Positions 25,274 through 45,518 are shown, counted from the stretch's first letter. The stretch: DNA of 47,320 nucleotides from a virus (IMGVR_UViG_3300032288_000087:1-47320); one strand, 5' to 3'. Notes: generated by a model from the sequence alone, not told the origin. Program-made: numbers and translations.

Positions 25274-25594
25274 TTATTTCTCTAGATTCTCAGTCTCGGG
25301 ATCGGTTTCCATAAACTTTGGATCTAGAATATAAGTGTACTTATAATCAGCAGCATCCTGATATGTTACTTCTCCACCCTTGGAGTCGTAGAAATCAATA
25401 AACCTAGGGTCAACTGACGTAAAAATCATGTCCTCAAACTGCCTCTTGGGATCTGACTCGTCAATGTTGAAGTCAACCCACTCGTTATCCTCACGGACCC
25501 AGATCTCTCCGGTCTTTGCCATATAGATGAGGTTGCGAACTTCGTCATTCTCATCAGTGAGAAGGAAGATTTGAGTTGGGAATCCTGATGACAT
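25274..25594 (-). CDS. Small acidic phage protein, unknown
   Basis: 106 residues. I take the ATG at 25594, which overlaps the stop of the gene upstream (TAATG) and follows GAGGAGA; a longer frame exists but would run back into that gene. Acidic, with many Asp/Glu and aromatic residues: IFLLTDENDEVRNLIYMAKTGEIWVREDNEWVDF looks like two beta hairpins. No cysteine, no signal peptide, no membrane segment. Not recognised. Its place between a Cys-rich protein and the protease, and its coupling to the former, suggest a head-assembly or accessory virion role. Confidence 0.75.
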   Translation of the reverse strand: MSSGFPTQIFLLTDENDEVRNLIYMAKTGEIWVREDNEWVDFNIDESDPKRQFEDMIFTSVDPRFIDFYDSKGGEVTYQDAADYKYTYILDPKFMETDPETENLEK

Positions 25595-26454
25595 TACTTC
25601 TCCTCTGTAATAGGTCCGCCGACGATCCATGCGTCGCAGGTTCGGCTGGATGCACATTTAAAGTCAAACGCTTCGCAGTACCCAAGTTCACCAGCATTAA
25701 TCGTATCCCAGCCGTCAGAAGAATCGGTTCCATTCTCCTGTAGTCCGCTAGAAATACACTCAAGCATTGATGGTGTTCTAATGAATGCAGAGCAGTTACC
25801 GCAGACAGCCTTACGGGCTTCAGCGTATGTCGTATTCCATCGTTCTGCCTTCTTGCGCCAGAAGTCAACATTCGGGTCTTTAGGATTCAAAGGACCATAG
25901 CCAGCGGCTTCAATTGCCTGCTGACGATTCGAGATGTTTACTCCAATATTCTTAGTTGCTACTGGACATGAGTCAGCGGCGGCTGTTACGGGCTCATCCT
26001 CTTTGCCTAGAGGTGGGTAGACATAATTATCAACTAAGAGCCCAGCGTTGAGCATCAATTCCATATGCTCTGGGGGGATATATGGCAACGTACTCATAGC
26101 GGCTAGATAATGTACATAAACAAGGTCAGTAGTAGGCGTATTAAAAATTAATTGACCGTCAGACTTTACTAATGGTCTAATAGTAGTACTAAATCCACTA
26201 CGGTCCTTGAGGACGATATGTCCGTCATCAGTATTTTTAAGTGCTTTCTGGTTGGATTTAGATTCAATACTACGAACATGCTGCCTATCGCCGGAAAACC
26301 ATGAAATTTCATCGTCATCTACTTGCAGCAGTCTTCCAACATATGTCATGCCGAGTCCCTCTTCTTCTACGGCAAATGGTCCCCAGACCTGATTTGGACC
26401 CGGCTTAAAATCACGAGGAACATACTCAGTACTAAACTTCTTTAGAGACACCAT
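25594..26454 (-). CDS. Cys-rich head-module protein (HiPIP-like motif)
   Basis: 286 residues, ATG at 26454, two nt after the giant gene. Residues 1-140 are a beta-rich domain with no recognisable family. Residues about 165-286 hold a cysteine-rich domain: AVCGNCSAF, MLECISSG, then LGYCEAFDFKCASSRTCDAW and a closing VGGPI. This arrangement of six Cys (C-x2-C, C, C, C, C) with a W-x-x-GGPI end matches a small domain common in marine and aquatic phage head modules and annotated in some as high-potential iron-sulfur-like. The residues would fit a metal or [4Fe-4S] site, but none has been shown here. The middle Y-GPLNPKDPNVDFWRKKAERW helix is also typical of these proteins. Confidence 0.75.
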   Translation of the reverse strand: MVSLKKFSTEYVPRDFKPGPNQVWGPFAVEEEGLGMTYVGRLLQVDDDEISWFSGDRQHVRSIESKSNQKALKNTDDGHIVLKDRSGFSTTIRPLVKSDGQLIFNTPTTDLVYVHYLAAMSTLPYIPPEHMELMLNAGLLVDNYVYPPLGKEDEPVTAAADSCPVATKNIGVNISNRQQAIEAAGYGPLNPKDPNVDFWRKKAERWNTTYAEARKAVCGNCSAFIRTPSMLECISSGLQENGTDSSDGWDTINAGELGYCEAFDFKCASSRTCDAWIVGGPITEEK

Positions 26455-26456
26455 GA

Positions 26457-29400
26457 CTATGAACTCCTCCGTGATCGCTTCTTACGATCCTTAACTTCTT
26501 GACGCAGTTGAAGCAGTCTTTCGTACCACCCTCGTCCTAGTCCAATAGGAGGCCGTGGTTTTGAGGGATCTGACGAGACACTATCAAATGAAGTGACCTG
26601 CTCCACAAAGAAGTCTTCAATCGGAATACCGTTGATGGATGTAATACCAGCGGCTCTCAGTAGATTAAGGTATTTATCTCGTAGATCTTGATTATTTACT
26701 CTGATAGCAAGCATTGTTGATAGTGGAATTGTATGACGAAGCATGACCTCGGCAGTAGCAGACTTAGACTGTTCAAGTTGTTCGACATAGCCTCTATCTT
26801 TATCTCTAAAGATATTCAACCAATCAATAAAAGAGTGGTACTTAGGATTCTTGGCACCATATGTATCCTCAGTATAGGAGAACTGGTCTAGTCTCCTGAC
26901 AATATCTCTGGGATCATACATAATAATGGCAGAAGTGCCATTTTCAAGTACTTTATGCTGCGAGTTTGAACCATTCGGTCTAATGAATACATAATCTGCT
27001 CCGCCAGTACTTGAGTCTTCTCTTGGGGAAGCGCCGACACCATAACTTAGTTTCCCAATAAACGCGCGTTGTGAAGAGGAGGTCATGCCGGGGGCTACGG
27101 CGTCAATGATGCTTAAGACAGGGAAGGAGTGAGGGTCAAATGTTGAGTAAAAGGAATCTTTTTTAGCCTTTTTCAGGATTGCATCTACAATCTCATCTGG
27201 TAGAGCAATAACAAGACGCCCGTCTACCCCAACCTCGTACGTCAGATTTTCAGGAGTAACTTCGGTTGAACCTCCTTCCCAATCTTTTTTGATACTCTCC
27301 AAACCTTCAGCAACTCTTTCAGGCGTATCAAAGTACCCGTCCTCGAATTTTGCTGTTCTAAAGTAGTGAAGAAGCCTATTTTCGGCCAGACGACGCAAGG
27401 AATCTTCCGTTGCATATTGTCTGCTGTTTTCACTTACTCCAAGCGATTCAAGAATTTGATCTAGTTTTTCTTTAGTAAATTCAGATTGTGGAGAAAAGAC
27501 TTCTACAGTATCGCCATATACCCACCCAGAATCATTGCCTCTATGGTAGTGGTATTCAATAACTGTTCCGTCATCCATTTGACGAATAAAAGTTGCTGCG
27601 CTATTTATGGAAGAAATCTCTGGAGTGCTTGCGTCTAGTAAATGAATTCCATCAGCCTTCTTTATCCTATCGTGGAACCTGAATTTAGAAAGTTCTTTCC
27701 AGTTTGGGTCACTTATGACACTATTAAACAATGCATCAGAAACAGACCCGGCTAACCTAAAGCGAACGCTAATCATTGGATTATTGTTTTCATCAAACAC
27801 AGTGCCTAACACAACTTCCAAGTTGGACACACTGCTACTATCATATAGCACTGTATGTTGATAGCCTTTGTCTCGCATTGATACAACAGAAGCAACCGCG
27901 TCCTCGACGGATAGAGTTCCGGTGAGCGGAACAGTTCCTCCACCACTCATGTCCAGAGTAGTGACAGATCCTTGATCGTCGAGTCCGACTCTCTTTAGAT
28001 GCTCTTTAAATTTATCACTCTCTACAACTGGACCTTCAGGATTTATACCTTGATTATGTTTACGTTCAGCATTTCTCTTTTGTTCTTCTTCACTTGAAAT
28101 CCATTCAGTAGATGAATACCAGAACGTAGAAAAATAACTAATATTATAATTATTAGTCGTCCCAACGTAACTAGGGTACGTTGACTGTAGGTAGATAACC
28201 TTTACTACGCCGTCAGTAACACTGACTACCTTAACTTTTGATTTTGCATTTTTTTCTCTATAAGCGTCTATAAAAATGTCACCAGTCACAGGACTATCCC
28301 TAAATGGCACATATTTAACTGTTCTTGGGTTGGGTTTCTGGTTCTCTCTGTTCATATACTCTTCTAGCGAGAGAGTCTGTTGAACAGGCTGAGCGAGAGG
28401 TACTTGGTGCTCTGAATAGAACTCATCAAACGGTACTGTATATATTTTTGCCTCAGCAGGGTCTGATTCCGTAGCACCAAGAGATTCATAAGTAACAGTG
28501 TTGATTGTACCGTCATCATTTCTCTCAACTGACACTATCTTTTCTACAGTCTGCCACTCCGTGAAGTAAGTATCACCCGGAACAGGACTTTCCAGCATTG
28601 GCACATACTCAACAGTTTCGGGCTCCGGATTTGGTGTAGGCGTAGGCGTAGGCGTACTGCTTGACTTTGGATTAGCCTTAGCCTTTTTTTGCTCAGACTG
28701 CTTGGCAATCCTCTCGTCTGCTTCTTGAGAAGAAAGCATCTCTGGGACAGGAGAATGCAGTTCTGCTAGAATCTTTAGAGGTACTTGTATTTCTTCTTTA
28801 CTAGAAAATGGTTTTTCTTCCCCATTCTCTAGATATTTAACTTTTTTAAGCGTGACGGCATCAACTCCAAGACCAGAGTGTGTCCCGACCGCAACTACTT
28901 CTTGCTCTAGGTACTTTCCATTTTTATCATTGGCTGGGAGTGAAGTCCAGAATTTGTCTCCAACAACAGGGTTGCTTATATCTGGAACGTACCGCTTCTC
29001 TCCAGAAATCCTCTTGTCAATCTCTTCTTGAGTTAGCATCTCGGTATAAGGCTTGAAGTCAGATCCCTTTAGGTCTGCGACTGAAACCTTTTTCCTGAAA
29101 TCTCTTGACGGAGTGACACCATTCTCCAATTTAATCCACTTGAGTTCGACCTCAGTCGCTCCTACGGGGGAGTCTTTGACTGAGACTACCTCGAAGACAG
29201 ACTTATCACCGGGCTCAGCATTACCTTTGTATGTATCCCCAACCTTAGGCTTTGTTGGATCAGGAGTGTATGGAAGTTTCTTGCCCTTTGATTTAGGTGC
29301 TGAAGTAGAAGATGAGCCACCTGAAGACTTCTTAGATCCATTCTTCTTCTCTGCGATTGCAGCCTGCTTTGCTGCTGCCTTTGCTACATCTTCCTCGAAG

Positions 29401-32400
29401 GAGACGACTTCTCCCTTCATATTTCCAGTTGGGATGAAGTTGGGATCATCTTCTCCAATTAGATTATTTTCTTCTTCGTCTGCTCTTTGATCCTTGAGAG
29501 ACTTGTCGTCGAGTACAAGCATCTTGGACGAGAAGAGTTTCCTCTTACCGTTCTGAAGCCTTACTACTACATAGTAGCCACGGTTAACACCTTGGCTGTC
29601 GATGAAGAGAAGTTTTGTTTCAACTTCCATGCCGTCATATCTGCCGTCAGGATTAACTTTACTGCTGACATGAGAGACAACATCTCCTCGACGGAGAGTA
29701 GTTCCTTCAGAATCCTTGAGACGGGCCTCATAATCCTGACGCTCGAATACTCCAATTGTGTCGCCAATATCTGCTGGAAGACTGTCGACATTGCTCTTTG
29801 GAGACGCAAGCGCTCCACTTGGAGATATCTGGCTAGTCCCTGCTTTTCCAGTTTTCTTTTCCTCAAAGGCGTATCCAGCAGGGTAGAAGATGATGTCTCC
29901 AACAGGAGCACCCTTCTTCGCCTTTGGATCAGTAAGGAATCGCCATTCGACATCAGTATCTTGGAGAGTTAGCATTCGAGAAGATCGAATTCGTGGTTCG
30001 GTCTCTCCATCCAAGAGAACCCAAACGTAGTCTCGATAACGACGACCCTGCCGAACTACAACATCGTTTCTTTCAAGTACGATGCCTTGATTGCCCTTAC
30101 TGTCAACAACTCGGTCTCCCTCTGCTAGTGGGATACCGTTTCTGTCAGCAAACTGACCGGCAATAGTTCGACGATACTTCGAGTCTTTGGTGTTTTCAGT
30201 GGCAGTTCCGTGCGCCCAGTTGTATCTGTTCTCTTCTACATACGAAAGAAGAACCTTTCCGTTAGGGCCAATAACCTTTGTGTAGGAGCCTTCACTTGTG
30301 TCAAGAGCCTCGGTCTTGATGCTGCTCGGTAGAGGAATACTGTTTGATGGCTTCCTACCGGGCTCCGGAGAGGTATCGGGTTCCTTATTAAGATCATTCT
30401 TCATCGCAGTAAGGGTCTCAGCAAACGCTCTGGCATTATCAGCAGCATTTCTAATAACTGCGATTAGTTTTCTCTGTTCGGGGAGCGTTTGATCTGAGTT
30501 TTGTGCTGCTGCAATAAAATTCTCTGCATTGAGGATGAAATTCTCAGAACCTTGAATTGCATAGTCAAACTCATATGGAGTCATTTGAGGCTTTGAAGCC
30601 ATGTAAGCAAACGCTTCCCAACTATTCTTTGCTTCGCTGCTGGTGGATCTCGTAGCGTCATCGCCTGAATAACTCTTGAAGTAGTCGAGGATCTCCAACA
30701 CAGCATGATGCAGACTCTTATCCGTCAAGTCTGGAGGCTGTGGACCATTAATCTTGGAGAATTCTTCTTGAATTTTTCTAGCAGCAATTGTGTCAAGATC
30801 CCATGCCAGCGAAGTGAGTTGACCGCTATAGTAAGCCCGATTTGGAATATCATTCGGGACCATATTTAGGTCTGCTCCGAGATCGCTCATAGCGTTTGAT
30901 GCCTTAGTAGTTACAAACTTGAGCGCATCTACGTCGAGGACTTCAGCGTTAATTACATCCATAAAGTCTTGCAGAGCCTTGGCTGCATTTCCTGCATCTG
31001 CCTTTAGAATGCTGCTTTCTCCGCTGTTGTCTCTGATCCAGTTAATGAGAGCAGCAAAGTATTCAAGGTCAGATTGGTAGTTAGCAGGATCTGCTGGCTG
31101 CGGAGGCTCTGAGATAACTTGATTGGTACCCTGATCTCCGCCTTCTTGAGTCTCAGTGTCTGATGTCTCATCAGCGCTTGTCGACGTGTCATCGCCGCTC
31201 GATGAAGAGGACGACCCTCCATCAAGTAGATCAGCCCACTGACGAATCTGATTGGCGGCAGCATTAATTTGAGTTGATTCAAATGAATCAGGACTGGTGT
31301 CTGGCAGCGAGTTGTAGTAGTCGGCCATCTCATCGACAGCGTCAGCAAGATTTCTAATTGCTTCTACAGTTTCTGCTACATTTCCATTATTGATAGCAAC
31401 TAGAGCATTGTTGAAGGCTTCGTAACTCTTCTGCTTTACTGCAAGCGCCTCCATGCTCGTAGTTGGTAGATACTTCTGAGCATCGTCATAGGATTTTGCA
31501 ATATTAAGAATGAGATTATTCGAATCAATAGGCTCGTTTGGAACTGTTGTCGTCGTCGTTGTTGGTTCTTCAGTTACCGTGTCGGGCTCAGACTTGAGGA
31601 ACCTGTCGATCAGATACTCTCGTCGGGCCTTGAGCCTCTCCTTGAGGTACTCGGCGTCGTCGGGGAAATCACCAAAGAAGGAATCAACAAGACTGTCGAT
31701 CTGCTCTGGAGTCAGCGCTTCTACTTTTCTCGCAGACTCTGCCAGATCCTCATCTGTCATGTCGCCAAAGATGTCAGCGGCTTGCGGATTGACGGATGGA
31801 TCGCGAAGCGAGTCAATCTGAGTGACTTCAGGGGTGAGGGTCTGTGACTTATCCTTACCTTGAGCCCTGAAGAGAAGCGACCCTCCGGGGTCGATTCGGT
31901 AGAGATCTCCTTCTGGGGTGGTCACCATGTTGTCGTACCCCAGACCAACGGAGTCCCAGTTATTTAGCCATGCATCTACTGCAAAGTCTTCCTGAGCCTG
32001 CCTCTTAAACTTTGGATCATCCTTTTTATCGCGGAAGTCTGCCTTTGCACCTTCCACAAGGGGAGAAACTAAAACGGTTTTGCCGTTAGCATCTCTTCCA
32101 AGGAAGATTTGTCCATTCTTAGTTCCAGCAGCCGCATAGAACGCTGAAGCGAGAGCCTCGTTTCGAGCATGACGCTCTGTCTGTGGGATCTTTACATAAT
32201 ATTCTTTGCCAGTCTCCGGATCTCGGTAGAAGGCTCCTTCATTGCTTCCCTTCTGCCCGCCAATCTTGACCCAACCAGAAGTGTCAAACATGACCCCATC
32301 GGGAGTGGAAACTTCCTCCACAGGTGCTTCTTCTGGGATGATGGCTTCGTAGGTCTTGGCAAAGTCTGGATGAAGTCGTCCAACAGATGCCATCTGCTTG

Positions 32401-35400
32401 ATCTTCTCAGCGGTGAACCATCCAGTCTTGCTGGTCTCCCAATCGGAGACCTTCATGTCACTGAATGATCCCTCTGGAACATCAAAGATGTAAGTATCGT
32501 ACGACCAGTCAGGAGCAATCTCCGCTGAGTACGTTGACGATGGAGTGAGGTCGTCAATGTTTCCACCGACTTCTTCAGAGAACTCTTCCTTAGCGGTAGC
32601 GTCACCCTTGGCGGCATCTACTGCGTCCTTATGTGCTCCACCCGGATACGCCCATGTTCCTCCGCCCTGAGACAGAGAAGATGAACGCTTGGTGAGGAAG
32701 TACTCGTAAACCCCATCCTTGTTCTTGCGGCGAAGCAGTGCTCCTGCGGCACCGTACTTGCCCCAGAAACGCTTTCCATTCGTCGAGAAGAAGTAGCCCT
32801 CGCCAGTGTTGAGATCAGTTCCACCAGACCTTGGGGCAAAGAACGGAAGAGTAGGCGGAGTAATGTCGCCGTTTCGAAGTCTTTGAACAGTACTGGACTT
32901 GATACCTACCGCGTGAGTTACCCCGTTGTCATCCTTGACAAGTTCATAGGACATCCCGTCAACTTCCCAAGTTTCCGGCTTCTCTTGCTCGGTTGGGGTC
33001 GTTGTAGGAACGACATCTTCTTCAGCAGAAGGTGTTGTAGGAACGACATCTTCCTGAGGCGGATTTGGAGACTCGTCGCTGTCCTCTGTGAAGTTGTAGA
33101 CCCAAGCCAAAGAGCCCGGATCAAGAGCCCTCTTTGCACGAGTGACTGCAACATAGGCCAAGCGCATTTCTTCTGGACTTGGCATGTCCAGCAACCCAGT
33201 CTTTGGATTCTTCTTGGGACCACGGAAGTCATCGTAAATCTTTACGCGATCCCACTCAAGACCCTTTGCCTTGTGAGCAGTGGTAATGACGACGTCTACT
33301 GGATCTTCTCCCGGCCCGCCGTTGAGAGCGTTCTTCAACTTATTGACTTTGTCGAGCGTATCTTCTGGGTCGTCGTTTGGAAGATACCAAGTCTTCTTAT
33401 CTTTATCCCACTTAAATCCGTGGGCCTTGATCGTGTCCTTACCTTGGAATGTCTTCTTACCAGAAAGTTCGACTCGGCCATTAGTAACAGTGTAGGAAAT
33501 ACCGTCGGCAAGATCTCCGGAAGCGCCATCGGCTAGTTCTTCGGGAGTTAGAAGTTTTACTTCTACGCCGCTCTCGGCATTCTTGTTGGAGGTTCTTACC
33601 TGAGAGAGAATGCTCCTAATTCCCTCAATACCAGTGCTCTCAACCATGTTGTGAAGCATGGCAACCTTGGCATCGTCTCCAGCAGTGGCTGCCTTAGCAA
33701 CTTCTTCCCAGTTTGAGAATGGGGCCAAGTCCTCATGAATCTTGTAAGGCTTGCTACCAGCACCCCCGCCAGCCTTGAGCCATGCTGCTGTGTCAACAAG
33801 AGACGTGAGTTCATCGCGATAGGCAGCGGAAATACCAACAGTTCGCCCTCGTGCAATCTCTTCCATGATTGCCTTAAGAGCGCCACCGTTAGACCGAACA
33901 AGGACAGCATCTGCATCTGTCATTGTCTTCGGCTCAAGGATCTCTCCGTCAGGACCGCCGCCCTCAACTCGATGCTTTGCACCAAGAAGTTTGAGGAACC
34001 TGTTGCCCATACCAGCAACCTGAGGTCCAAAGCGCCAAGACTTTGTTAGTGGTAGATCGTGCTTGGCAACTACCTTGTCTAGTTGATCCTCTGCTCCACG
34101 GAAACCGTAGATAGCCTGATTGCCGTCTCCAACGTAGACCTTCTGAATCTTCTGGTCTGCAACGACCTTTGCCAGAACCGGGTTGATGTCCTGAGCCTCA
34201 TCGAAGAAGATGATGTCTGCTGGATTCTTAAGACCAGAACCAAACGTGGAGAGGTCTGGTCGAGAAAGCGCCCACATCTTGGTCACATGGTTGTTCTTGA
34301 TGCCTAGTCGACCATCTGGGCTCTTGTAATCTTCCCACATTCTCCGAGCAAGATCTAGCAGCGCGGGATCTAGTACTTGATCCTCTCCCAGTTCAAAATG
34401 CTTTGAAGAAATTTCATCATCGGCACTAATAGTGAATGCATTGACAGCCCTATTTGCCGCTACTACTGCTTCGGTGGGGGTAAGAATGTTGCTGTTATCA
34501 CGAGGATCTTTGACCTGTCCAGCCTTCATGTAGACAGCAATCTCTTTGATCTTTGTGATATTTGTGGACTTACCCTTCTTGCCTGTGATCTTTGAACTGA
34601 CTGCCTGCCAAGCAATGGAGTCCGCAGTTCGGGACTCGACATTGTCCGGCATTGTCTCTTGTGCCTCTGTCTGCACAGACTTGTTGAAGGCAATGTAAAT
34701 AATCCGCTTGCCGGGATTTTCCTTCTTGAGCCTACGAGCAATAAGTTTTAGAGTAGATGTCTTTCCTGTACCGGCGAGGGCACGAACAACGACATCTTCT
34801 CCTGTCATTACAGCGTCGATGATCTCGCGCTGCTGCTCCGTTGGCGGGAAGGGCTCGTCTGCGTATGGATCTCCATCGCCGGTAGTCGGAGGAATGCTGT
34901 CGCCACTTCCTCCGCTCTTGTCAGTGGAAACCTCGGGATCAGGATCATTATTGTCGTCTTGTCCCTGAACTTCAGAGACTCCTGTTGGTGAAGTTGATGC
35001 ATTGTTTACTACAGCATCTACGTCGACAGTTTCTCCGCGAACAAGAGCGTCAAATACGGCCTTGTCTGCTAGATACTTGATCCGATCCTCTTCGTACTTC
35101 GCGAGGTTCTTCTTCTCCTGCTCAAGGGAATTCTCAAACCGGCGCTGCGCCTCGTCAACTTCTGAAGCAAGACCACCGTTTCCGTCCACACCCCGCTGAA
35201 TAAGAGCCTCGAAAATCTTGTGGGTAGCCTGAACATCGGAATCGGCATCGTGCCAGTTGTCTAGGGTTACCCCAAACGCCTTGGCAAGAGTGAACAAGTT
35301 GTAGTACTTCTTGTTGTTGGGGGCGTCAGGAGTCTTCTCAATAACAGTGTTATTGGGGTCATCCGGATCTGGAACTGCTTGACTGAACATTGCTGTTGCC

Positions 35401-38400
35401 ATTGTCATGGTGTCAGCAATTCCGGCTGGGTTGAACGTGAGGCCAAACTCCTTGGCCTTACGGTCGATGATCTCGTGATCGAACCTAGCGTTCTGAGCGA
35501 TCAAAAGCGGAGAGTCGCCCATGAAGTCAAGGAGTTCGGCAAACGCTTGCTGCTGTGATGGCTGAGTGGAGAGGAATCCATCCGTCAAAGGATTACCGTC
35601 AGGATCAGAGTTCCTTGGCTTACCCTTGTCGTCTACTCCGCCAGCATAGGTGTCAACAATGCTTCTGCCGGGATTAATATATGTGGAGTAGCGATCAATA
35701 ATCTCTCCGTTGCGAACCTTGATCGCAGAGACCTGCCACGGCTCATTGCCGTCCTTCTCGTCGATACCAGTGGTCTCGAAGTCGAAGAAGATTAGGTCTT
35801 TGTCCTTCAGCGCTTCCTGTACAGCATTCCAGTCACCATTTGCATCACGAACAATCGACGCAAAATCTCCTTGGAATGGAGGGAACGGTGTGGTGAATGG
35901 CTTAGTTGGTTTGAGCGGCTCAGGAATGACAGATCCCTTAGAGTCCCCTGAACTTGTGGGATCTGCAAACCGCTTGCCAGCATCTTCAATCTGCTTTAGT
36001 ACAGCGGAAAGATCTTCTTCAAACTTCTTCTGAGCCTCAGGATCTTCCAAGAACCACTTCTTGACGCTTGAACCGTCTGCCTTCTTGTACGTCGCGTAGC
36101 GCTTCTTTCCGTAGTCCTCCATCTTTGGCTTGGAGAGTTCTGGAAGATCACCCTTTGCTGGGACAAGAGCCTCAGGCACTCCGCGAATTACGGTGATAGA
36201 GGTGTTTGGATCCCAACGCTTTGTGTTCTGAGTAACGTGTCCGGGGAAGTATCCGCCTACGGCAATGTACTTATCGTCTTCTGTCGGTGTGACAGTTTCG
36301 ATGACAAAGTACTCAAGGACACCGTTCTGTGTGGTAACGGTGATATCACCGGGCTGAACGTCTCTTGCTGAGACCGTAACTCGCTTCGGTGCAATTGGTG
36401 CTGCCTGCTGCGTTGATTCGAACCTAACGTCAATGCCTTTTTCACTGAGCAATCTCATCAGGTCGGCGTGAGTAGGATCGTCTTTATAGGAGTCAGGAAC
36501 TGTAACGTGGTCAATATCGTCTAGGGAGACTCCCCCAAAAACTAATGCCTCCCAATAACCTGTACTTTCTCGTAGAATCTCCGATACCAGATCTTTTTTA
36601 TCAACATTGTTGATTCTAGACAGTAGTTCGGTATCTACCCATGCGCGGAAGATATCGTCAGACTTAGCAGTATCATCATATAGAGACATAATTGAAACAG
36701 GATTACGCTTTGAAAGGTACGAATCTCCTGCAACTATTGAAGCCCTGTTTTTTACTTCATCTTTGAGAGTTACTTTAATTGGCCCATATACAGATGCGTT
36801 TTGATGATTGTGGATTACGCCCGAGATCGGTCGAATGCTGTCCGGTGTGTCTTCGGGAATTCCAAAAACTTCTGTCTCTAGAGCCCTTCTACCGGCGGTG
36901 TATGCTTCGCTTTCTTCGCTCTTTTTGGTCTCAAAAACACTCTTGAATCGACCGTCTTCTAGAACCTCTAGAAGTTCTCGGGCAGGAATGTTGATTGTAA
37001 TATCTTCGGCTGTTACTTGATTGAAAGCCATAGATAGAGACGTCTCAAGCGACTTTGGATCTTTAATGTCCCAGTCTTCAACATACTGGCTTAGAGTCGG
37101 GGCTAGGAGACTCGGCTTGAGAGGGTAGGGAACATTTTGAGCAGCAAGTTTTGAATTGACAGATTTGGAACTGGTCGAGATAAAATCTTTGAAAGTCTTT
37201 TCTGCATTTTCATAAGCCGCTTTAGCGGCTGCTTTTTCTTCTGGAGACGAGTCGGGGCTTGATTGAATAGCGTTGTACTTGGTTTCCGCTTCCCAGATGT
37301 CTCCATTAAGTTTACGAGCAAGTTCGCGGTCTGTCAGTTTGTAAGACCTGATCTCGGCCTCTCGATCATATAGACCAGACTCTGCTGACAGCCTCAATCG
37401 CTCTACTTGGTCAGTGATTGGATTAGACTGATCGTTAAGTTTTTCATCAATTTTATCAATAGCATTGTAGAGTCCCTCATCTGAAAGGACACCCAGAACG
37501 AACTCAAGGCTCTTGCGTTCCTGCGTTATGGAATCTTGATCCACGCCGGGGGTTGTTGGGGTCGTGGTAGTTTCAGATGGGTTGGCAATGAATTCATCGA
37601 GACGGGTCTGTACGACATCTCGTGCATCGAGTTTATCTAATGCCTCTTCACCAGAAACATTGTCGTCATCGACAGACTTGTAGAAATCAGTGGCAGACTC
37701 CCACACATCTGCGTTCAGACTGCGGGCAACATCAGCATCGACCTTATCAAGACCGGATTGACGGATGGACTGCTCATTGATGAGCGCCGCAATCCATGCG
37801 TCGAGTTCACCAGAGCGCTTTTGGTCAGCGGTGGTACGCATTTCTTCTTGAGCGCGAGCAATCTCGGCAGAAATGGCTTCATCTGATGCCTCACCAAGGT
37901 TGAGAACCTTCTGTCGACCCGTACCGGGGAAATCTTCGGATGTTGGAGTAGGAGTCGGCTCTTGGGGCGTAGTGGGAGTGGGAGTGGGAGTGGGAGTGGG
38001 AGTGGGAGTGGGAGTGGGAGTGGGAGTGGGAGTGGGAGTGGGAGTGGGAGTGGGGGTTACGCCTTGACCCTGTCCCTGACCTGTGCCCTTGCCAGTTGAA
38101 TCCGGAGAGTCGATTGAAGCGTCGATGTTCTTAAGAAAGTCGTCGAAGGACTCTGATGGAGTTACTCCTCCACCGACCGCGACCCACTTTCCAAAGGCTT
38201 TCTTGAAAGTGACGCCTCGATACGTCCAAGTGCCGTCGCGGTTATCAACCGGGGCATTGGCATCAGTTGGAGTACCGGGAATTACAATTCGTGCTTCTGA
38301 CGTATCGCGCGAATCTCCGCCGAAGGACTCAGTGGAGCCGTCTTCATAGGTAACGTCGTAGCCAATGGTCTTGCCAGTCTTCTTCAGCGTCCTCTTGTCA

Positions 38401-41400
38401 ATAGAGGCAATCCGACGCCACTTGCCTCCGGAGAACACCCAGTCCCCAACTCGCCACCTGTACGGCATCTCCATTGAGGAGTCACCTTCTGGGCGGAAGG
38501 CTTCTTCAGCCTGAGACAGATAGTCTGGCTGCTCTGGGATCTGTACGTCTGGGTTGTTGGTGTAGTAGTCATCAATGTTGGCAGCCATCTCATCAAGATT
38601 TTTGCCGGACTTGATGCCCTTCCCAGCCATATCTCCGACTGCTGTGTACTTTCCGTAACTAAGACGGAAGCGAACTCCCTTGTAGAGGAACGTGCCATCG
38701 CGAAGATCAACTGGGGCTAGATTAGAGTCCTGAGGAGGAATAATAGTCTGGCGCTTGTTCTTGTCGTAGGCATCGAAACGGATAGTCTGTCCGTCATCAA
38801 ATGTCAGTTCAATAAATCCAGTCTTTCGACTCCCGCCACTTCCGACAGCCTCGGCAGTCTTGATTCGACGCCACTTACCGTCGTAGAAGATCCAGTCGCC
38901 CGGACGCATTTGCGATGGGTCGAGTGCTTCAGACCTTCCGATTGGTGAATCTACCCCTTGTCCTTGGCCTTCATTGCCTCGACCGCCTTCGCCCACACCT
39001 GTCGAGCGTGAGCGTCCAGTTCCTCGTCCGTCATCTGTGACAGATCGGGAATCTGTATCACCTGAATCCGATCTGGATGTTGACTCTTCATTTCCAACTC
39101 CTTCGCCACGCTTATTAAGTTCACGCCTGAGACTAGCGAGATAATTACGAGTGTTGCTGATATCGCCTCGACGCTTGCCGTCAGTAGGCTTCCGCCTTGG
39201 AGCATTCTTAAGAACTTCTTCTAGCCGTGCAATTGTGTCAGCAAGTTCCTCAACTGTCCAATCCTGAATGTTTTTTGGCCTTGGATCTCTTAGTTTGGTA
39301 GATCCCTGCTCAATTGCGTCAGGATTGTCAAGTACTGTGGTATCGCTTGGCTTGAGGTCACCGGGCTTCAGGGTGGCAACTTGACGCATTTTTACGCGGG
39401 TGATGTTGCCGTCCTGCTCAATGCCAAGAACCTCAAACTTTCCAGAGGTAACGTGCTCCCCGATTGACGCACCGGGCTCAAAGGCAACCATTGGAATAGC
39501 CCGAGCACCCGGCTCCAACTCAATAAGAACTCTGCGCCCGTCTTCCACGTTCAGCAGTGGTGTTGCAAAATTTTCGGCTTCGCCTTTAGCGGTACTGAAA
39601 GCGCCAAGCGGAATATAATAATCTCCGCCCTCAACAAGAGCGTTTGCATCCTTGCCATTAAGGAACATGCCTCGGTAGAGCGGATTGTCAGTCTTTGGAC
39701 TGTTTTCAACCATGCTCAGACCAGCAAGAGCCGTTCGTTCGTAGTACTCGCTCTCTGGCTTGTTGCCTTCAAGAATTTGTCTGGCAGCGTTACGCGCTTC
39801 CTCAACAAAATCAAGGGAGAATACCCATTCCCCGACAAAGTCTCGTTCGCTGTTAGATAGTTCGTTCTTTAGGTCTTCATGCTGAGTGAACTTAGAGTCA
39901 TAGTAACCTCGGAGTTCTTCTTCCGGAGTGGGCGGGTCTGAGACTGGCTCACCACGTCCTTCGTCCTGAAGTGCTTTAGCGCGGTCCAAGGTATCCGCTA
40001 GTTTGCGATCTGGTCGTGAATCTAGTTCGGCTAGAGAACCGTCACCACCAGTACTAATCTCTTCTTCATTGATGACATCCCAGATACTAATCTGGTTGCG
40101 ATCACGGCCCGCTTGTTTTGCTTCTTCGAGGTCTTTGATGTTTTCGGAAACATCTAGGAATACTTTATGGTCTTCTTCCGGAATCGGATCATAGATCTCT
40201 TCGCCGTTTTCATCAAGGATTGGCTCGTTATTCTCATCAACACGTTTTACGGAGGTTTGATGCCAAAGACCAAGATAGTCGCCATTTGCTAGAAGATCTC
40301 GGTTCTTACGGAAGAAGTCGCTAAGGATTTGCGGACCCTTTTCAGGATCAAAGAAGTCGGCAGCGGGAACAATATCTCCGGCAACTCCACCCTTGGCAAC
40401 CATGTAGCCGTCTGGTGGAAGGCTACCGTCGACCATGTTGATGGAAAGGCCGCCAGTATCCTTAACACTCTGAAGAATCTTGCTGGCGACGTCGTCGCTA
40501 ATATCCTTGCCTTCCTCGGGGAGAGAGGCAATAGGCTTAGCGGCCTTCTTCTTGCCCTTGTTTTCGCTAACAACTTTGCCATTGACAACTTCTCGTGGCT
40601 CAGGAAGTACATCTAGCCACTTGCCTTGGTCAAGAACTTCAATTCGAGTAACACGAAGCGGTGTCCCCGCGTCAATTGTATGCTCATCTTCGTCACCAAA
40701 AGCCGATTTGCCGATCTTTCGTTCACCCTCGTATTCAGCGTGAACAATGACGGGAAGGTGCCCTCCCCCCTTAGCAATTCCAGCGGCCTTTTCTGCAATT
40801 CCGCGAGCGCCACCAGTCCAGTGAGCGCCAATTCCTCCGCCGCCCTTCCCCTTCCCGGCTGCACCTCCCTTGAGAAGTTCATCAAGAATGATGTCTCCCA
40901 ATTTCAGGTGCTGATCCACCTCATTGTCTTCGGTGGGCATGGCAAGCAGTTTTCCGACCTGCTCACGGAGTTCGGGGGACATTTCGAGGGCAATACCGCG
41001 CATTACCGAGTTTTTGGCACTGCCGCCCTGTGACTTATCTGACGGCGTGATGCCACTGCGTGTCTCGTCCAGACGCTTCTTGTTGGTGTCGCCGCCCTTT
41101 GCATCGTCGTAAATCTTGGCAACCTCGGCGTCGGCATCCATGCCACGCTCGGACATGGCGCGATGAAGTGCGGCAGCGGGGACAAACTCGTACTGCTCAA
41201 ACAGCATGACGCCTTGGCCCTTGCCAGCGCCGTTCTCCTCGTCGCCAAGAAGCGCACCCTTTAGGCCATCGCGAAGTTCATCTGCCTCGAACATCTGAGC
41301 AAGTGCAGCAGGGTCGTCCGTGTAGTCGGAGGATTCTTGACCCCTATTCCCCTTAGGAACAAAATCGTCAATCTCGATCTTTGACAGGACGTATGCGGTG

Positions 41401-42836
41401 TCTGGAGCGTCCCATGCAACATCTGCTGCATTTGCAGTCTCTTCCCGCTGCGAGGGAAGGGTTGCCTTTGCCTTTAGCCGCTCTCGAATTTCGTTTGCGG
41501 CGTCACGAAGATCCTCCACAAGTTCCGGATCTTTGTTGTCTTCTTCGAGAGCATCTGCGTTGAGGTCTAGGCGCTTCGCAATATCTTCAGGAGTATCTTT
41601 CCCAGAAGTCTCACCTGTGTTGAAATAGTCGAGAGCAGTCCTAGAAATGGCCTTAGCGTCACCGTCATGGTCTACCTCGGACTCAAGTCCGCCCTTGAAA
41701 TCGTTGTACTGCGCTTCCTTGCCGGTCTTACCGTCGAGTCGGGCCTTGGCAGCGTCTGACTTATTGGCCTTCTTGCCGTCCCTGACAACAGCGCGATGAA
41801 CGCCATTCCACGAGTTAAAAGTTCCTACTTCGGCATTATCTCCGCCGTTTCGGAATACCTTGAACTCCCGCTCGCCATCCTGATTAGTACGTTTCTCAAT
41901 ACGGTAGTCATCACCACCGTCATCCATGCCAAAAGTTTTTACACCGTTTTCATCGGAAAGCGTTGCATATCCGGATGGTGCATCCAACTCAACCAGATCG
42001 GCTTCGTCGACAATTGAATCCGCATCTTCGAGAGAAACATTGGCTGGAACACCTGCGTATCCGTCTCCCCCTTCAACAAGGGGTCGGAACGCTTTGATAG
42101 CCTCGGACTTAGATGCAGGAACTTGCCAGATCTTCCCGTCGGGTGTTTCCATTTCAAAGAAGTCACCATTGTTTGACTCTTTGATGAAACGACCCGAAAA
42201 CGACTCAACCTGACCGTTGGCTCGGCGGATGAGGTTCCTCAGACCGCCGCCCATCCACGCGAATCGACCCTTACGGTCGCGGCGCTGAAGTTTGGCGCGA
42301 GCCGAACGAGCAGCGCGAGAGTTTCCGTCGCCAAACGAGGCAATAAGAGCCTGAAGGGCCGTACTGTCGTGCGCGGCTTCTAGCCTAGAAATAGCATAAA
42401 AGTGCTCCACAGAGCCGGGTTCTGAGACCAGTGCGGCAGCAACAAGACCCCGATGATCGTCAGAAATGCTGGGATCAGACGAGATCCACATAGCCTGAGC
42501 CTCACGCAGAGCGGAGGCAGTCATGGCGTGCGGAGCGGTGGATCGAGGGTGAGCAATTGGAAGTAGGTCAGTGTCAATCGCAAACTCGGTCTTGCTACGG
42601 TTGTGCTGTGCAAGTTCGATATAGCGGCTTAGGGCTACAAGGGCCAAATGATGTCGAAGAGACGACGCTAGGCCGCTAGAGGCCACGAGAGAGCGTTGTA
42701 CGACAACGTCAGCGGTGCCAACGTTTACACGTCGGCACGTTGGAACTCCCTGATTAGCCGCGACAACAGTCTTGGTGACCTCTGCGCGAAGTCGAAATGC
42801 TTCTGCTGCGGGCAGGTGAGAGCGAAAGTTCTTCAC
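26457..42836 (-). CDS. Giant polyvalent virion-associated protein (5459 residues)
   Basis: A single open frame of 16,380 nt; GTG at 42836 overlaps the upstream stop by 4 nt (GTGA), with AAGGG nine nt ahead. Domains (approximate residues): N-terminus with [10 protein letters not shown] (95-105); first ADP-ribosyltransferase-like domain with [19 protein letters not shown] (660-750); a GG-x-S...TGG domain (800-930); second ART-like domain with LYRGM and [12 protein letters not shown] (1010-1150); two GDW-type repeats (1300-1600); TP linker (1594-1622); DUF3626-like (1950-2140); DEDDh exonuclease (2335-2545); UvrD/Rep-type helicase (2660-3245); NUDIX (3340-3500); HipA/PI3K-like kinase fold (3515-3750); helical region (3760-4140); SH3/KOW-like pair (4180-4440); four 'Y-x-P-x4-PV-x-GD' repeats (4525-4920); and a C-terminal domain with TGGADYVF (5275). 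It sits between portal and protease, the usual site of phage polyvalent proteins, which are thought to be packaged and injected. Confidence 0.9.
28050..29290 (-). repeat. Four diverged beta repeats in the giant protein
   Basis: Units start near 29275, 28995, 28605 and 28315 with (Y)(V/T)P-x4-(S/N/K)PxxGD and end in a segment such as [11 protein letters not shown] or [11 protein letters not shown]. Each is about 90-130 residues; the internal strands differ. A short TP-rich linker ([13 protein letters not shown]) separates units two and three. Confidence 0.75.
37971..38054 (-). repeat. Hexanucleotide microsatellite, 14 copies, coding a Thr-Pro linker
   Basis: AGTGGG on the plus strand, repeated 14 times without a mismatch, encodes an alternating Thr-Pro run in the giant protein. 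A related, imperfect TP-rich linker lies at about 28640-28665. Because the unit is 6 nt, gain or loss of copies changes linker length but never breaks the frame. Confidence 0.97.
38080..38935 (-). repeat. Tandem pair of GDW-type beta domains in the giant protein
   Basis: Copy 1 (about 38640-38935) and copy 2 (about 38160-38470) share RPGDW(I/V)F-x2-GKWRRI, a T-x-(D/E)DG strand, R-x-(I)IP, VD-x-RDGT-x-Y-x-GV-x-F and YGK/FGK-x-(T/V)AVG. The core, K-W-R-R-I plus DG and RDGT, is well kept. Confidence 0.85.
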
Positions 42837-43777
42837 TGGTTGTTACCCTTCTCAACGCGCGGCAATAGGTCAGCGTCCTGACTGTTATATCCTAATTCTG
42901 CCATAGATAATGCTCTTGTGAATGGATTATCACCATCATTTGTTGCACGCATCCATGTTGCCTTAAAAGCAGGTTCTGTCTCGTAACCAAGACCTGAGTA
43001 CTCAATCATGTCCAGAATTGCATCTTCAGAGGACTCGTACTCGTCCTGCGGCTTAACAGTAATCAGTAGTTCAGGGAGAACATCTAGTTCGTCAAGAGTG
43101 TCAACTTCGGGTTTCACAATCCCGTCTGGGATAACGGCGAATCGACACTTTCCGGCTGGTTCAACCGGGAGATCAATAATAGAGCACCTGTCATCTCCCC
43201 GATAAAGCACGCAATTGGCGCACATAACTCCAATATTGGCAACAGGATTCTCGGCTGCCGGAGTGTATCCGGCGTAGATTCCGGTGCCATCTTCGTTGAA
43301 CTTTCCGTAAGTGTCGGCAATTTCAAGAAGAGCCTCTGCCAGTTCATGCTCCTCGGGAACCAGAATTCCTGCACCAGCAGTCAGCGACTTCTTGCTTCGC
43401 TTGGTGCTTAGAGGATGGCTGGCAGGAAGAAGATCATTGTCGGAAACGTACGCAGAGTTCTCTGGGCGACCAGACTTAAGAAGTTTCAGGAAGGCATTGA
43501 CCCGAGCCATCGCCCACTGATTCCGGGTCTTGCCGGGGCGATGGCTGGTGGAGTATGCGCCCGCTCCACGACGATAAACAGCCTTGAGTGTGGCTAGAGA
43601 GGTCTTCCGCCACTTAGGGGCTTTCTCATTGTGCTGCTCAACCTTGTTACGCAGAGAGGTTTCCGTAGCATCAGAAAACTTAATCATGCGGGAAGACTCT
43701 GAGCCTTTGGCACTCCCCGGTTTATTTGTCTTTGACCCGGTGATCTGGTCTTTCTTAGGTGCCTTGCGGTCAGGCAT
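42833..43777 (-). CDS. Portal-linked head protein with DLLP and Cys motifs
   Basis: 314 residues. I start at the ATG at 43777, preceded by GGAGGAG, overlapping the portal stop by 8 nt; the frame extends further upstream but that part is the portal's Gln/Pro tail in another frame (Gln/Arg/His-rich). Residues about 30-125 match a domain seen in actinophage head modules: HNEKAPKWRKTSLATLKAVYRRGAGAYSTSHRPG, then QWAMARVNAFLKLLKSG (quoted in parts), then DNDLLPASHP. Residues about 195-245 hold VMCANCVLYRGDDRC and GKCRFAVIP, a four-Cys element (C-x2-C ... C ... C) like one in other phage head proteins. The DLLP-x2-HP motif recurs near the N-terminus of the giant protein encoded next, so the two may share a binding site. 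MuF-like position, but I see no clear MuF fold. Confidence 0.75.
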   Translation of the reverse strand: MPDRKAPKKDQITGSKTNKPGSAKGSESSRMIKFSDATETSLRNKVEQHNEKAPKWRKTSLATLKAVYRRGAGAYSTSHRPGKTRNQWAMARVNAFLKLLKSGRPENSAYVSDNDLLPASHPLSTKRSKKSLTAGAGILVPEEHELAEALLEIADTYGKFNEDGTGIYAGYTPAAENPVANIGVMCANCVLYRGDDRCSIIDLPVEPAGKCRFAVIPDGIVKPEVDTLDELDVLPELLITVKPQDEYESSEDAILDMIEYSGLGYETEPAFKATWMRATNDGDNPFTRALSMAELGYNSQDADLLPRVEKGNNQ

Positions 43778-45518
43778 TTGGCTGCTCCTCCTGCGGCGGG
43801 GCTGGTGCTGGGGTCTGTTCCGTAGGTGTCGCTGCTGGTGCTTCTGTCTGCTGTTGTGGAGGAGCCGGTGCTTCTTCGGTTGCTGGCGCTGCTGGTGCCG
43901 GTGCTGGTGCTCCCGCTGGCGCTGCACCGCCCGCCTGCTTGAGAATCTGCTGAACCTCAGGCGGGATTGCTCCTACCGAGGACGCCTGCTGCGCGGCTCG
44001 AACGGCGTCCATGACTCCGGGGGCCAGAGCGCCGAGCATTGCCTCGGTAAGTTCCGGCGTAATAGCACCGCGCTCGATCATCATCCGAATTGCCAGTTCG
44101 TTGGCATTAGGAGCATCTGCATCAGAGAAGCCGTGCGCCCGACGCCAAGTGTCGAGGCTGACGGCGTAGCGGTCGTAGCCTGAATCGGCATCGGCGGCGC
44201 GGTCGTTGCGGGTGGAGACGGCTGAGGGGTCGTACCAGACAACGATGCGGTCAACGTCGTCCTTGGTGAAGCCGGATGCGAGTAGGTACGGACGCAGATA
44301 GACAACGGTGAGCGCGTCAACAATGAGCAGCATCAGCGGCTCAATGTGCGTCTTGTAGAGCGTCTCGTCGATCTGGAGAGCGTTTGAGTACTTGACGTTC
44401 GCAAGGCCGGTGACAATATCCTTCGGCACATCCAGACCCTGAAGAATGCGCTCCAGCACGCGGTCAGCACGCTGAGCAAGTGCCGGGTCGAAAGAACGCT
44501 CAAATTTAAACTGCTTGATTTTGTCGCCAAGTTCCGCTGGGCCACGAATAATAAGCGGCACAACGGCGGAGGCTGATTCCTCATCGCGGATTGGCGTCGT
44601 CATCGCGTCGATCAACTGCTCTTCAAAATCGTCTTCCATCTCCGCGCTGGTGATGGTCGGATTGAGATCAGTGTCGTCGTCATAAATGTCAACGTCACCC
44701 TGCGCTGCAACGCTCAGTCCGTCCGGCAGGTAGAGCGCACCAGCATTGAGGCGGCTGCGAGCGGTAGCGCGGAAGGTGCGGTTGAGCAGCAGCAGTTCGG
44801 AGCAGAGATCGAGAAGGCCGCGCAATGACGAGTCGGCCTCGTCGGAGTATCGGGGGTGTGAGCGCCAGATGCGACCGATGAACGCATTGGAGGGGAGCCT
44901 GTTGGCGGGGCCATTCTGGTTTCCGCTGTTCGACATCTCGCGGCGACCGACGACGGAGTAGCCGCCACGCGGGTCGGTCTTGATCTCGTCAACGGAACGG
45001 ATGTCCCACGACTCAGGGATCTGGGAGCCGATGCGCTCTGGGATCTGTACGAGGTAGCACTCACCAGCAACAGAGAGGTTGAGCGCGGCATCGCGCAGCA
45101 TTCCGGGCTGTCCGCCGAAAGCGGAGTTGAGCCGGTCAAGGGCGCGGTCGGCGGCTGAGGCGAGGCGGTCGTCAACTTTGACGGACTGGGTGACCGAAAC
45201 GGGAGCCTGTGAGGGATCTTCAACAATTGCGGGGAAGATCCGAATGCGCGAAATGACAGAGGCTACGAGATTGAAGGCGTACTTGATTTCACCGATAGCG
45301 TCGTAATACTCCCACGCCTCGCCTTGCCAAGTGCTGGAGCCGGAAGAGCGCCTACTCTTGAACTGTTCAAACTCTGCTTTGTCGTTGATCTTGATCTGCG
45401 TTGCAGCGGCGGTGATGGCACGCGGGGTGTCGTAGGCGACAGCACGGGCAGGGGTTGCCCCTAAGCCGGTAACGATGACCGGCAGATTGTCCGAACTATC
45501 AGATCGGAAGATGCCCAC
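43770..45518 (-). CDS. Portal protein
   Basis: 582 residues; GTG at 45518 behind AAGGGG. Residues about 65-95 (TWQGEAWEYYDAIGEIKYAFNLVASVISRI) start the conserved portal body; then PGMLRDAALNLSVAGECYLV, RIWRSHPRYSDEADSSLRGLLD and ELLLLNRTFRATARSRLNAGALYLPDG follow, all typical of actinophage portals. Further on come FERSFDPALAQRADRVLERILQGLDVPKDIVTG and a helical C-terminal wing. The last 60 residues are a Pro/Ala/Gln/Glu-rich tail without structure. It forms the dodecameric DNA gate at one capsid vertex, where the terminase docks (not in this window) and where the adaptor joins the tail. The motif strings are given in overlapping parts and are recognised by eye. Confidence 0.93.
   Translation of the reverse strand: MGIFRSDSSDNLPVIVTGLGATPARAVAYDTPRAITAAATQIKINDKAEFEQFKSRRSSGSSTWQGEAWEYYDAIGEIKYAFNLVASVISRIRIFPAIVEDPSQAPVSVTQSVKVDDRLASAADRALDRLNSAFGGQPGMLRDAALNLSVAGECYLVQIPERIGSQIPESWDIRSVDEIKTDPRGGYSVVGRREMSNSGNQNGPANRLPSNAFIGRIWRSHPRYSDEADSSLRGLLDLCSELLLLNRTFRATARSRLNAGALYLPDGLSVAAQGDVDIYDDDTDLNPTITSAEMEDDFEEQLIDAMTTPIRDEESASAVVPLIIRGPAELGDKIKQFKFERSFDPALAQRADRVLERILQGLDVPKDIVTGLANVKYSNALQIDETLYKTHIEPLMLLIVDALTVVYLRPYLLASGFTKDDVDRIVVWYDPSAVSTRNDRAADADSGYDRYAVSLDTWRRAHGFSDADAPNANELAIRMMIERGAITPELTEAMLGALAPGVMDAVRAAQQASSVGAIPPEVQQILKQAGGAAPAGAPAPAPAAPATEEAPAPPQQQTEAPAATPTEQTPAPAPPQEEQPNA

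Follow-up and report, generated by a model that had tools for sequence, protein, structure and literature searches.

Why should a phage carry a gene of 16.4 kb between those for its portal and its head protease, and what becomes of the product? This question is raised by the 47,320-bp IMG/VR virus record IMGVR_UViG_3300032288_000087 (in the following the window, to whose full length the coordinates refer). Its minus strand, on which all window features named below are located, holds a single reading frame at 26457-42836, encoding a protein of 5,459 amino acids and 599 kDa, here called the giant. In coding direction the genes are arranged in the order portal, DUF5824 protein, giant, two small genes, a fusion of scaffold and S78 protease, major capsid protein and tail genes. 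The giant combines disparate domains and its gene lies among those for virion structural proteins, which bears out the first-pass annotation as a polyvalent-type protein in the head module. We consider it probable that the giant is a virion-packaged polyvalent effector, which undergoes a single cut by the prohead protease and is then ejected in one piece. Packaging had initially been proposed from the gene position; it is now backed by a capsid-type motif, a head-restricted tag and a slot conserved across many phages. From these features we infer packaging, cutting and ejection, and likewise the activities and targets of the protein.

A conserved slot with interchangeable cargo

Relatives were reached by tblastn with the giant and the portal. 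They are DSL-LC01, the Arthrobacter phages Mimi and Atuin, Microbacterium phages such as Cece and, more distant, Gordonia phages. As judged by sequence, the family shows a conserved slot, an N-terminus constant among close relatives and interchangeable cargo on low-complexity linkers. One or two large genes occupy the slot between portal and protease/capsid in every relative region examined, and this conservation extends over eleven isolates or complete genomes and a large number of uncultured relatives. Its proteins measure 883 amino acids in GMA2, 734 and 1017 in Forza, 774 and 1285 in Sixama, 1479 in Phendrix, 1654 in Cece, 2235 in Pumpernickel, 611 and 1764 in Zooman, 611 and 1913 in A3Wally, 2709 in Mimi, 3113 in Atuin and 3289 in DSL-LC01. 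Uncultured relatives reach 4,479 amino acids, the next in size after the window giant, and some possess two giants in tandem. The giant is thus the longest within the phage family found; its presumed place among the longest polyvalent proteins altogether has to be given up, as a plasmid-borne one of 12,242 amino acids is cited by Iyer et al. (PMC5512222). A further giant gene of a relative is gp94 of Mimi (record L003, 63072-75872), a 'minor tail protein' of 4,266 amino acids.

While the N-terminus is constant in close giants, the cargo domains are exchanged, lost and reordered. The relative L006 lacks the stretch from about residue 593 to 1636 and is joined at a Pro-rich linker. In G008 the order is kinase-like domain, NUDIX, exonuclease, the reverse of that in the window giant. 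The helicase is present in G003, G004, Mimi and Atuin and absent from others. Most module boundaries of the giant coincide with low-complexity linkers, and the GC content at third codon positions ranges from 0.35 to 0.58 between modules, a variation which matches the expectation for a mosaic. Relatives of the N-terminal region (PRO-TAG, described below) are encoded at 259 IMG/VR loci, as a profile scan showed. A prophage or host origin was also considered and rejected: a scan of the GTDB genome collection for this region found no relative.

Is the giant really one gene? Its 5,459 codons contain no internal stop, and the GTG start codon shares bases with the stop codon of the gene before it (GTGA). 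The frame is not due to chance, because full sets of catalytic motifs run through it and because the comparison with L006 over 590 codons yields a non-synonymous divergence (dN) of 0.18 and a synonymous divergence (dS) of 1.9, values that indicate strong purifying selection on the part common to both. The single 16.4-kb frame that had been annotated is therefore confirmed, with identical ends. It might in part be an assembly artefact, if two slot genes, such as are found in G007 and G008, had become joined in frame at a Thr-Pro repeat (residues 1585-1635, 37932-38084). The DNA of another IMG/VR record, L005, agrees with that of the giant at 100% over 9,348 bp, equivalent to residues 1-1621, and this record stops inside the Thr-Pro repeat (residues ~1590-1635 of the giant, window position about 37973); such a join would also fit the tandem pairs of giants in some relatives and the GC content, which is 0.53-0.56 at the N-terminus but falls to 0.42 towards the C-terminus. 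However, L006 has the same N-terminus joined to the very module that comes after the repeat, and in L061 and L062 PRO-TAG, the kinase-like domain and the DarT-like C-terminal module share one frame. Furthermore, the second giants of relatives begin with a tag of their own, and none is seen after the repeat in the window giant. We regard an artefactual frame as most improbable. As L005 does not extend through the repeat, the number of its units and, in principle, the join at this place are less certain; a single-sequence scan of IMG/VR found no second copy of the C-terminal part by which to check the frame. That L005 breaks off exactly in the Thr-Pro repeat makes the latter a likely hot spot of assembly or recombination.

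The N-terminal tag and the candidate cleavage site

Close giants open with a pro-domain of about 165 residues (PRO), followed by a basic segment, the RD tag, and a small barrel. In the window giant, the helical PRO spans residues 1-164 (42345-42836) and is related to part of the upstream DUF5824 protein and its homologues. The predicted prohead-protease site, LIA↓S, with the arrow for the cut, lies at residues 164-167 (42336-42347). The basic RDxxGRF tag covers residues 172-192 (42261-42323), and the predicted small beta-barrel of the tag domain residues 198-284 (41985-42245). In the predicted structure PRO is helical to residue 169, disorder extends from 170 to 183 and the barrel begins at 198, which places an order/disorder boundary at the candidate cut site. 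In G008 and G009 PRO is encoded as a separate gene and their giant begins at the tag. A fold search with PRO-TAG returned a weak SH3/Tudor-like barrel (Z about 5-6) and sigma-factor-like helices (Z about 5), from which no function was drawn, and a PDB sequence search with the PRO-TAG profile gave no significant match.

Of the 18 proteins, from ten phages, that contain the tag (pattern R[DG]xxG[RKQ][FW]), 17 belong to the head module, although this module accounts for about a quarter of the residues scanned. The sole non-head match of this kind is RDSKGRFI, present twice at the C-terminus of a 310-residue open reading frame of Mimi (L055, 110115-111047 of that record). As a general feature of actinophages the tag was rejected, as it is absent from the Leaf and Saguaro head genes checked, where the short motif is frequent. 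The scaffold/S78-protease of the window (19687-25230; 1,847 amino acids with a Dps/ferritin-like domain) possesses two tags, at residues 362-368 and 1688-1694, and the cleavage-type motif at residues 329-332.

This motif, [LIVM][TV]A[SAG] with the cut written A↓[SAG], links the giants to the capsid proteins. Each of the 16 capsid proteins aligned has V/M-[TA]-A-[AS] at the end of its acidic scaffold part, just before the conserved part; in the major capsid protein of the window (17674-19524) the motif reads PVTA↓A at residues 190-193. With expectations taken from shuffled sequences, the motif occurs 170 times in head genes against 37 expected (4.6x), and 96 times elsewhere against 81 (1.2x). 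In six phages (DSL-LC01, GMA2, Forza, Mimi, Cece and Phendrix) the head genes, taken phage by phage, contain more motifs than any of 200 shuffles; among the other gene sets only that of DSL-LC01 does so, and marginally (38 versus 36). The first 200 residues of 29 giants contain 43 motifs where 4.3 are expected, the remaining 55,927 residues 21 where 25 are expected. The motif, sometimes in relaxed form, precedes the tag by 16-26 residues in most giants and by 28-31 in most scaffold-proteases; a spacing of 21 or 22 is seen in 48 of the 52 unique family members. In the giants of Mimi, Atuin and G008 the tag is already near the N-terminus and the motif is absent. This absence, together with the separate PRO of G008 and G009, is as a cleavage signal predicts. 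The best guards against homology bias are the phage-by-phage repeat and the scaffold-protease, whose similarity to the giants was found only around the tag. Cutting of the whole giant into many peptides by the head protease was considered and rejected, since motif density past residue 200 is at chance. Processing into several peptides, a possibility raised in the first-pass annotation, is thus not predicted: the candidate sites are concentrated in the first ~170 residues and occur beyond these about as often as expected by chance.

Motif and tag in common with the scaffold-protease, and a PRO related to a neighbouring head protein, would also be expected if the giant were a head-assembly or scaffold protein with enzyme-like domains as mere passengers, the chain being removed before or during DNA packaging. 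Yet helicase and exonuclease have their catalytic motifs intact, the cargo is freely exchanged with the N-terminus retained, and the cargo, in contrast to the scaffold-protease, contains the cleavage-type motif no more densely than expected by chance. We therefore hold a role in assembly to be unlikely. Another explanation sees in the giant an ordinary late intracellular enzyme of the head operon, acting in the producing cell. Indeed, Streptomyces phage JustBecause has ordinary separate genes, away from those of the head, for a related helicase and for a DnaQ-like exonuclease. A head-restricted tag and a capsid-type motif at the N-terminus of the giant, and a slot position kept whatever the cargo, speak against this explanation, to which we assign very little probability.

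For a packaged and ejected effector the following course can be proposed. PRO and/or the RD tag would bring the giant into the prohead alongside the scaffold-protease bearing the same tag. The prohead protease would then cut it once at about A166, as is thought for the capsid protein, and a mature chain of ~5,290 residues and ~581 kDa would be retained in the head, to be threaded out with the DNA, domain after domain. Inside the cell, helicase and exonuclease might act on incoming or host DNA and NUDIX on nucleotide signals or ADP-ribose products, while the kinase-like and DarT-like domains may modify host macromolecules. Take-over and counter-defence would thereby start ahead of phage gene expression.

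Several points weigh against this course. The site of the window giant, ALIAS, fits only the relaxed motif, and the giants of Mimi and Atuin are counted here as well for their lack of it. The shuffles overstate independence because the sets contain homologues. The exact cut is uncertain because the capsid protein has several similar motifs, and the specificity of the protease is itself deduced. GMA2 orf10, a slot protein, has no RD tag. No virion proteomics was found for the window phage or a tagged relative, and no channel passing a 581-kDa chain has been shown for the siphovirus-like phage of the window. An experimental hint in favour of packaging comes from a study that includes virion mass spectrometry, where GMA2 orf10 is listed beside portal and capsid genes as 'putative structural protein' (PMC4524720). 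We see an even chance for a broader proposal. In it, the actinophages of this lineage would possess a signal of general use for head import and processing, made up of a cleavable site and the basic RDxxGRF tag and common to scaffold-protease and cargo. Enzymes of various kinds would be fused to this signal and reshuffled, and the resulting single chains, as large as about 580 kDa, would be injected; a DarT-fold ADP-ribosyltransferase would be among the enzymes entering the cell with the DNA.

Cargo domains and neighbouring head genes

The nuclease, helicase and NUDIX domains that had been read from the sequence were recovered by profile searches, and these assignments are solid. The DEDDh exonuclease (residues 2310-2580, 35097-35909) matches Pfam RNase_T at 5e-15 and PHROG 192 at 2e-27. 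The UvrD/FBH1-like helicase (residues 2655-3270, 33027-34874) matches PHROG 1967 at 3e-83 and, as nearest solved relative, FBH1 at 8e-31. The signature motifs of both enzymes are present. For NUDIX (residues 3290-3495, 32352-32969) RenU is nearest (2.6e-14). PADLOC matched the giant only with models for the exonuclease region (DEDDh, PDC-S48). The DUF3626-like domain (residues 1900-2145, 36402-37139) stands with a match below threshold in Pfam (6e-4) and one to the unnamed PHROG 8314 (1e-9). The kinase identity of the domain at residues 3503-3752 (31581-32330) is weak; conserved motifs are present, with HipA_2 at 0.016 in two relatives and LepB at 0.13. This domain is widespread, occurring in Gordonia phages and several phages of Gram-negative hosts.

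At the C-terminus, a module at 26583-27920 shows a DarT-like ADP-ribosyltransferase fold in its second half (about 26589-27197) and is found in 51 IMG/VR loci. Its AlphaFold model, built with 22 sequences, has a predicted TM-score of 0.80. The top seven PDB matches to this model are all DarT (Z 6.5-8.0 in the VIA re-alignment, 10-16% identity), the best of them covering 154 residues at 4.2 A; the next family follows with Z 5.7 on a different part of the model. Such Z values are middling taken alone, but seven consecutive DarT entries together with a Pfam DarT match (E 0.0014, under the curated cut-off) make a DarT-type fold credible for the modelled domain. Within the 22 sequences R285 is invariant and E391 nearly so; the two are candidates for the catalytic Arg and Glu. 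A PDB sequence search with the C-terminal profile gave no significant match. Of the at least two ADP-ribosyltransferase-like domains proposed earlier, support has thus been gained by the C-terminal fold, while two further regions, residues 620-765 (40542-40979) and 950-1165 (39342-39989), remain readings of motifs; neither has a profile match, and the latter has no PDB match.

No function is assigned to module M1 (residues 430-600, 41037-41549), which recurs in relatives in up to three copies, or to module Q (residues 770-930, 40047-40529), related to PHROG 17808. Module H is present in two copies (residues 1636-1896, 37149-37931), so that with the Thr-Pro repeat the repeat arrays noted in the first annotation are real.

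Upstream of the giant are the portal (43770-45518) and the DUF5824 protein of 364 amino acids (42833-43927). Cys4-type motifs (CxxC...C...C) occur in both head proteins flanking the giant, at 42833-43927 and 25594-26454, and also in a protein of the DSL-LC01 protease region; the DSL-LC01 relative of the 25594-26454 product is annotated in its record as 'high potential iron-sulfur protein'. The ferritin/Dps-like domain at residues 1295-1430 of the scaffold-protease looks intact (Pfam Ferritin 5e-15; PHROG 3636, 'DNA binding protein', 4e-22), and its fusion to a scaffold/prohead-protease is unusual. At residues about 1447-1624 the same protein has two copies of a module ALPDGSYPI...DLKNAIQAYGR.

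Relation to known packaged proteins

If the proposed reading is true, a head-loading signal for injected proteins would exist which is distinct in sequence from that of T4 and whose carriers include culturable phages, those of Arthrobacter and Microbacterium and, with a variant form, those of Gordonia. It would predict the N-terminus of mature effectors, make a class known mostly from bioinformatics testable by one virion proteomics run, and offer a possible route for loading foreign proteins into actinophage heads. Helicase, exonuclease and the DarT-fold ADP-ribosyltransferase would be candidate weapons acting ahead of phage gene expression.

Polyvalent proteins of phages and conjugative elements have been described (Iyer et al. 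2017, PMC5512222), as have ADP-ribosyltransferase and NUDIX domains packaged in phage heads (PMC5512222, PMC9503650). Like the giant, they join many disparate enzymatic domains per chain and are encoded among virion genes; the ADP-ribosyltransferase, UvrD-type helicase and NUDIX themes are recorded there (PMC5512222 or its sequel PMC9503650). The giant differs in belonging to an actinophage family with a constant pro-domain, a processing motif and a head-restricted tag, as well as in its DEDDh exonuclease adjoining an FBH1-like helicase and its DarT-fold C-terminus. A literature search joining polyvalent proteins with actinobacteriophages gave no match. Polyvalent proteins are thus known, whereas the slot family, its shuffling and the shared site-plus-tag head signal are new as far as could be tested.

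With DarT the C-terminal domain has its predicted fold in common; it differs from it by the low identity, by its place in a phage giant and by the lack of a DarG partner, no Macro domain being among the Pfam matches of the giant or of ten scanned neighbours. Propeptides removed by the prohead protease measure 10-20 residues in T4 internal proteins and 111-130 in SPN3US ejection proteins, where the cut is at a motif common to the capsid protein (PMC7411985). The T4 internal proteins and Alt, with their capsid targeting sequence, and the SPN3US proteins thus resemble the giant in an N-terminal propeptide with a capsid-protein motif, thought to guide import, and the SPN3US propeptides are comparable to PRO in length. 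The motif of the giant is [LIVM][TV]A↓[SAG], however, and not AXE or T4-like, its cleavage is a prediction, and an extra basic tag would remain on the mature protein. In phage P1, DarA and DarB are large head-packaged antirestriction proteins injected with the DNA, and the N-terminus of DarA is removed by the prohead protease (PMC12810830). The giant differs in bearing the tag itself and in the lack of a methylase domain of the DarB type among its Pfam or PHROG matches. The virion RNA polymerase of N4, a packaged protein of ~3,500 amino acids with loosely connected domains, is ejected via a channel of ~35 A (PMC12633501). The giant has no RNA polymerase domain among its Pfam, PHROG or NCBIfam matches, is 1.6 times longer and comes from another phage type, but the N4 enzyme is a precedent for the threading of such a beads-on-a-string chain.

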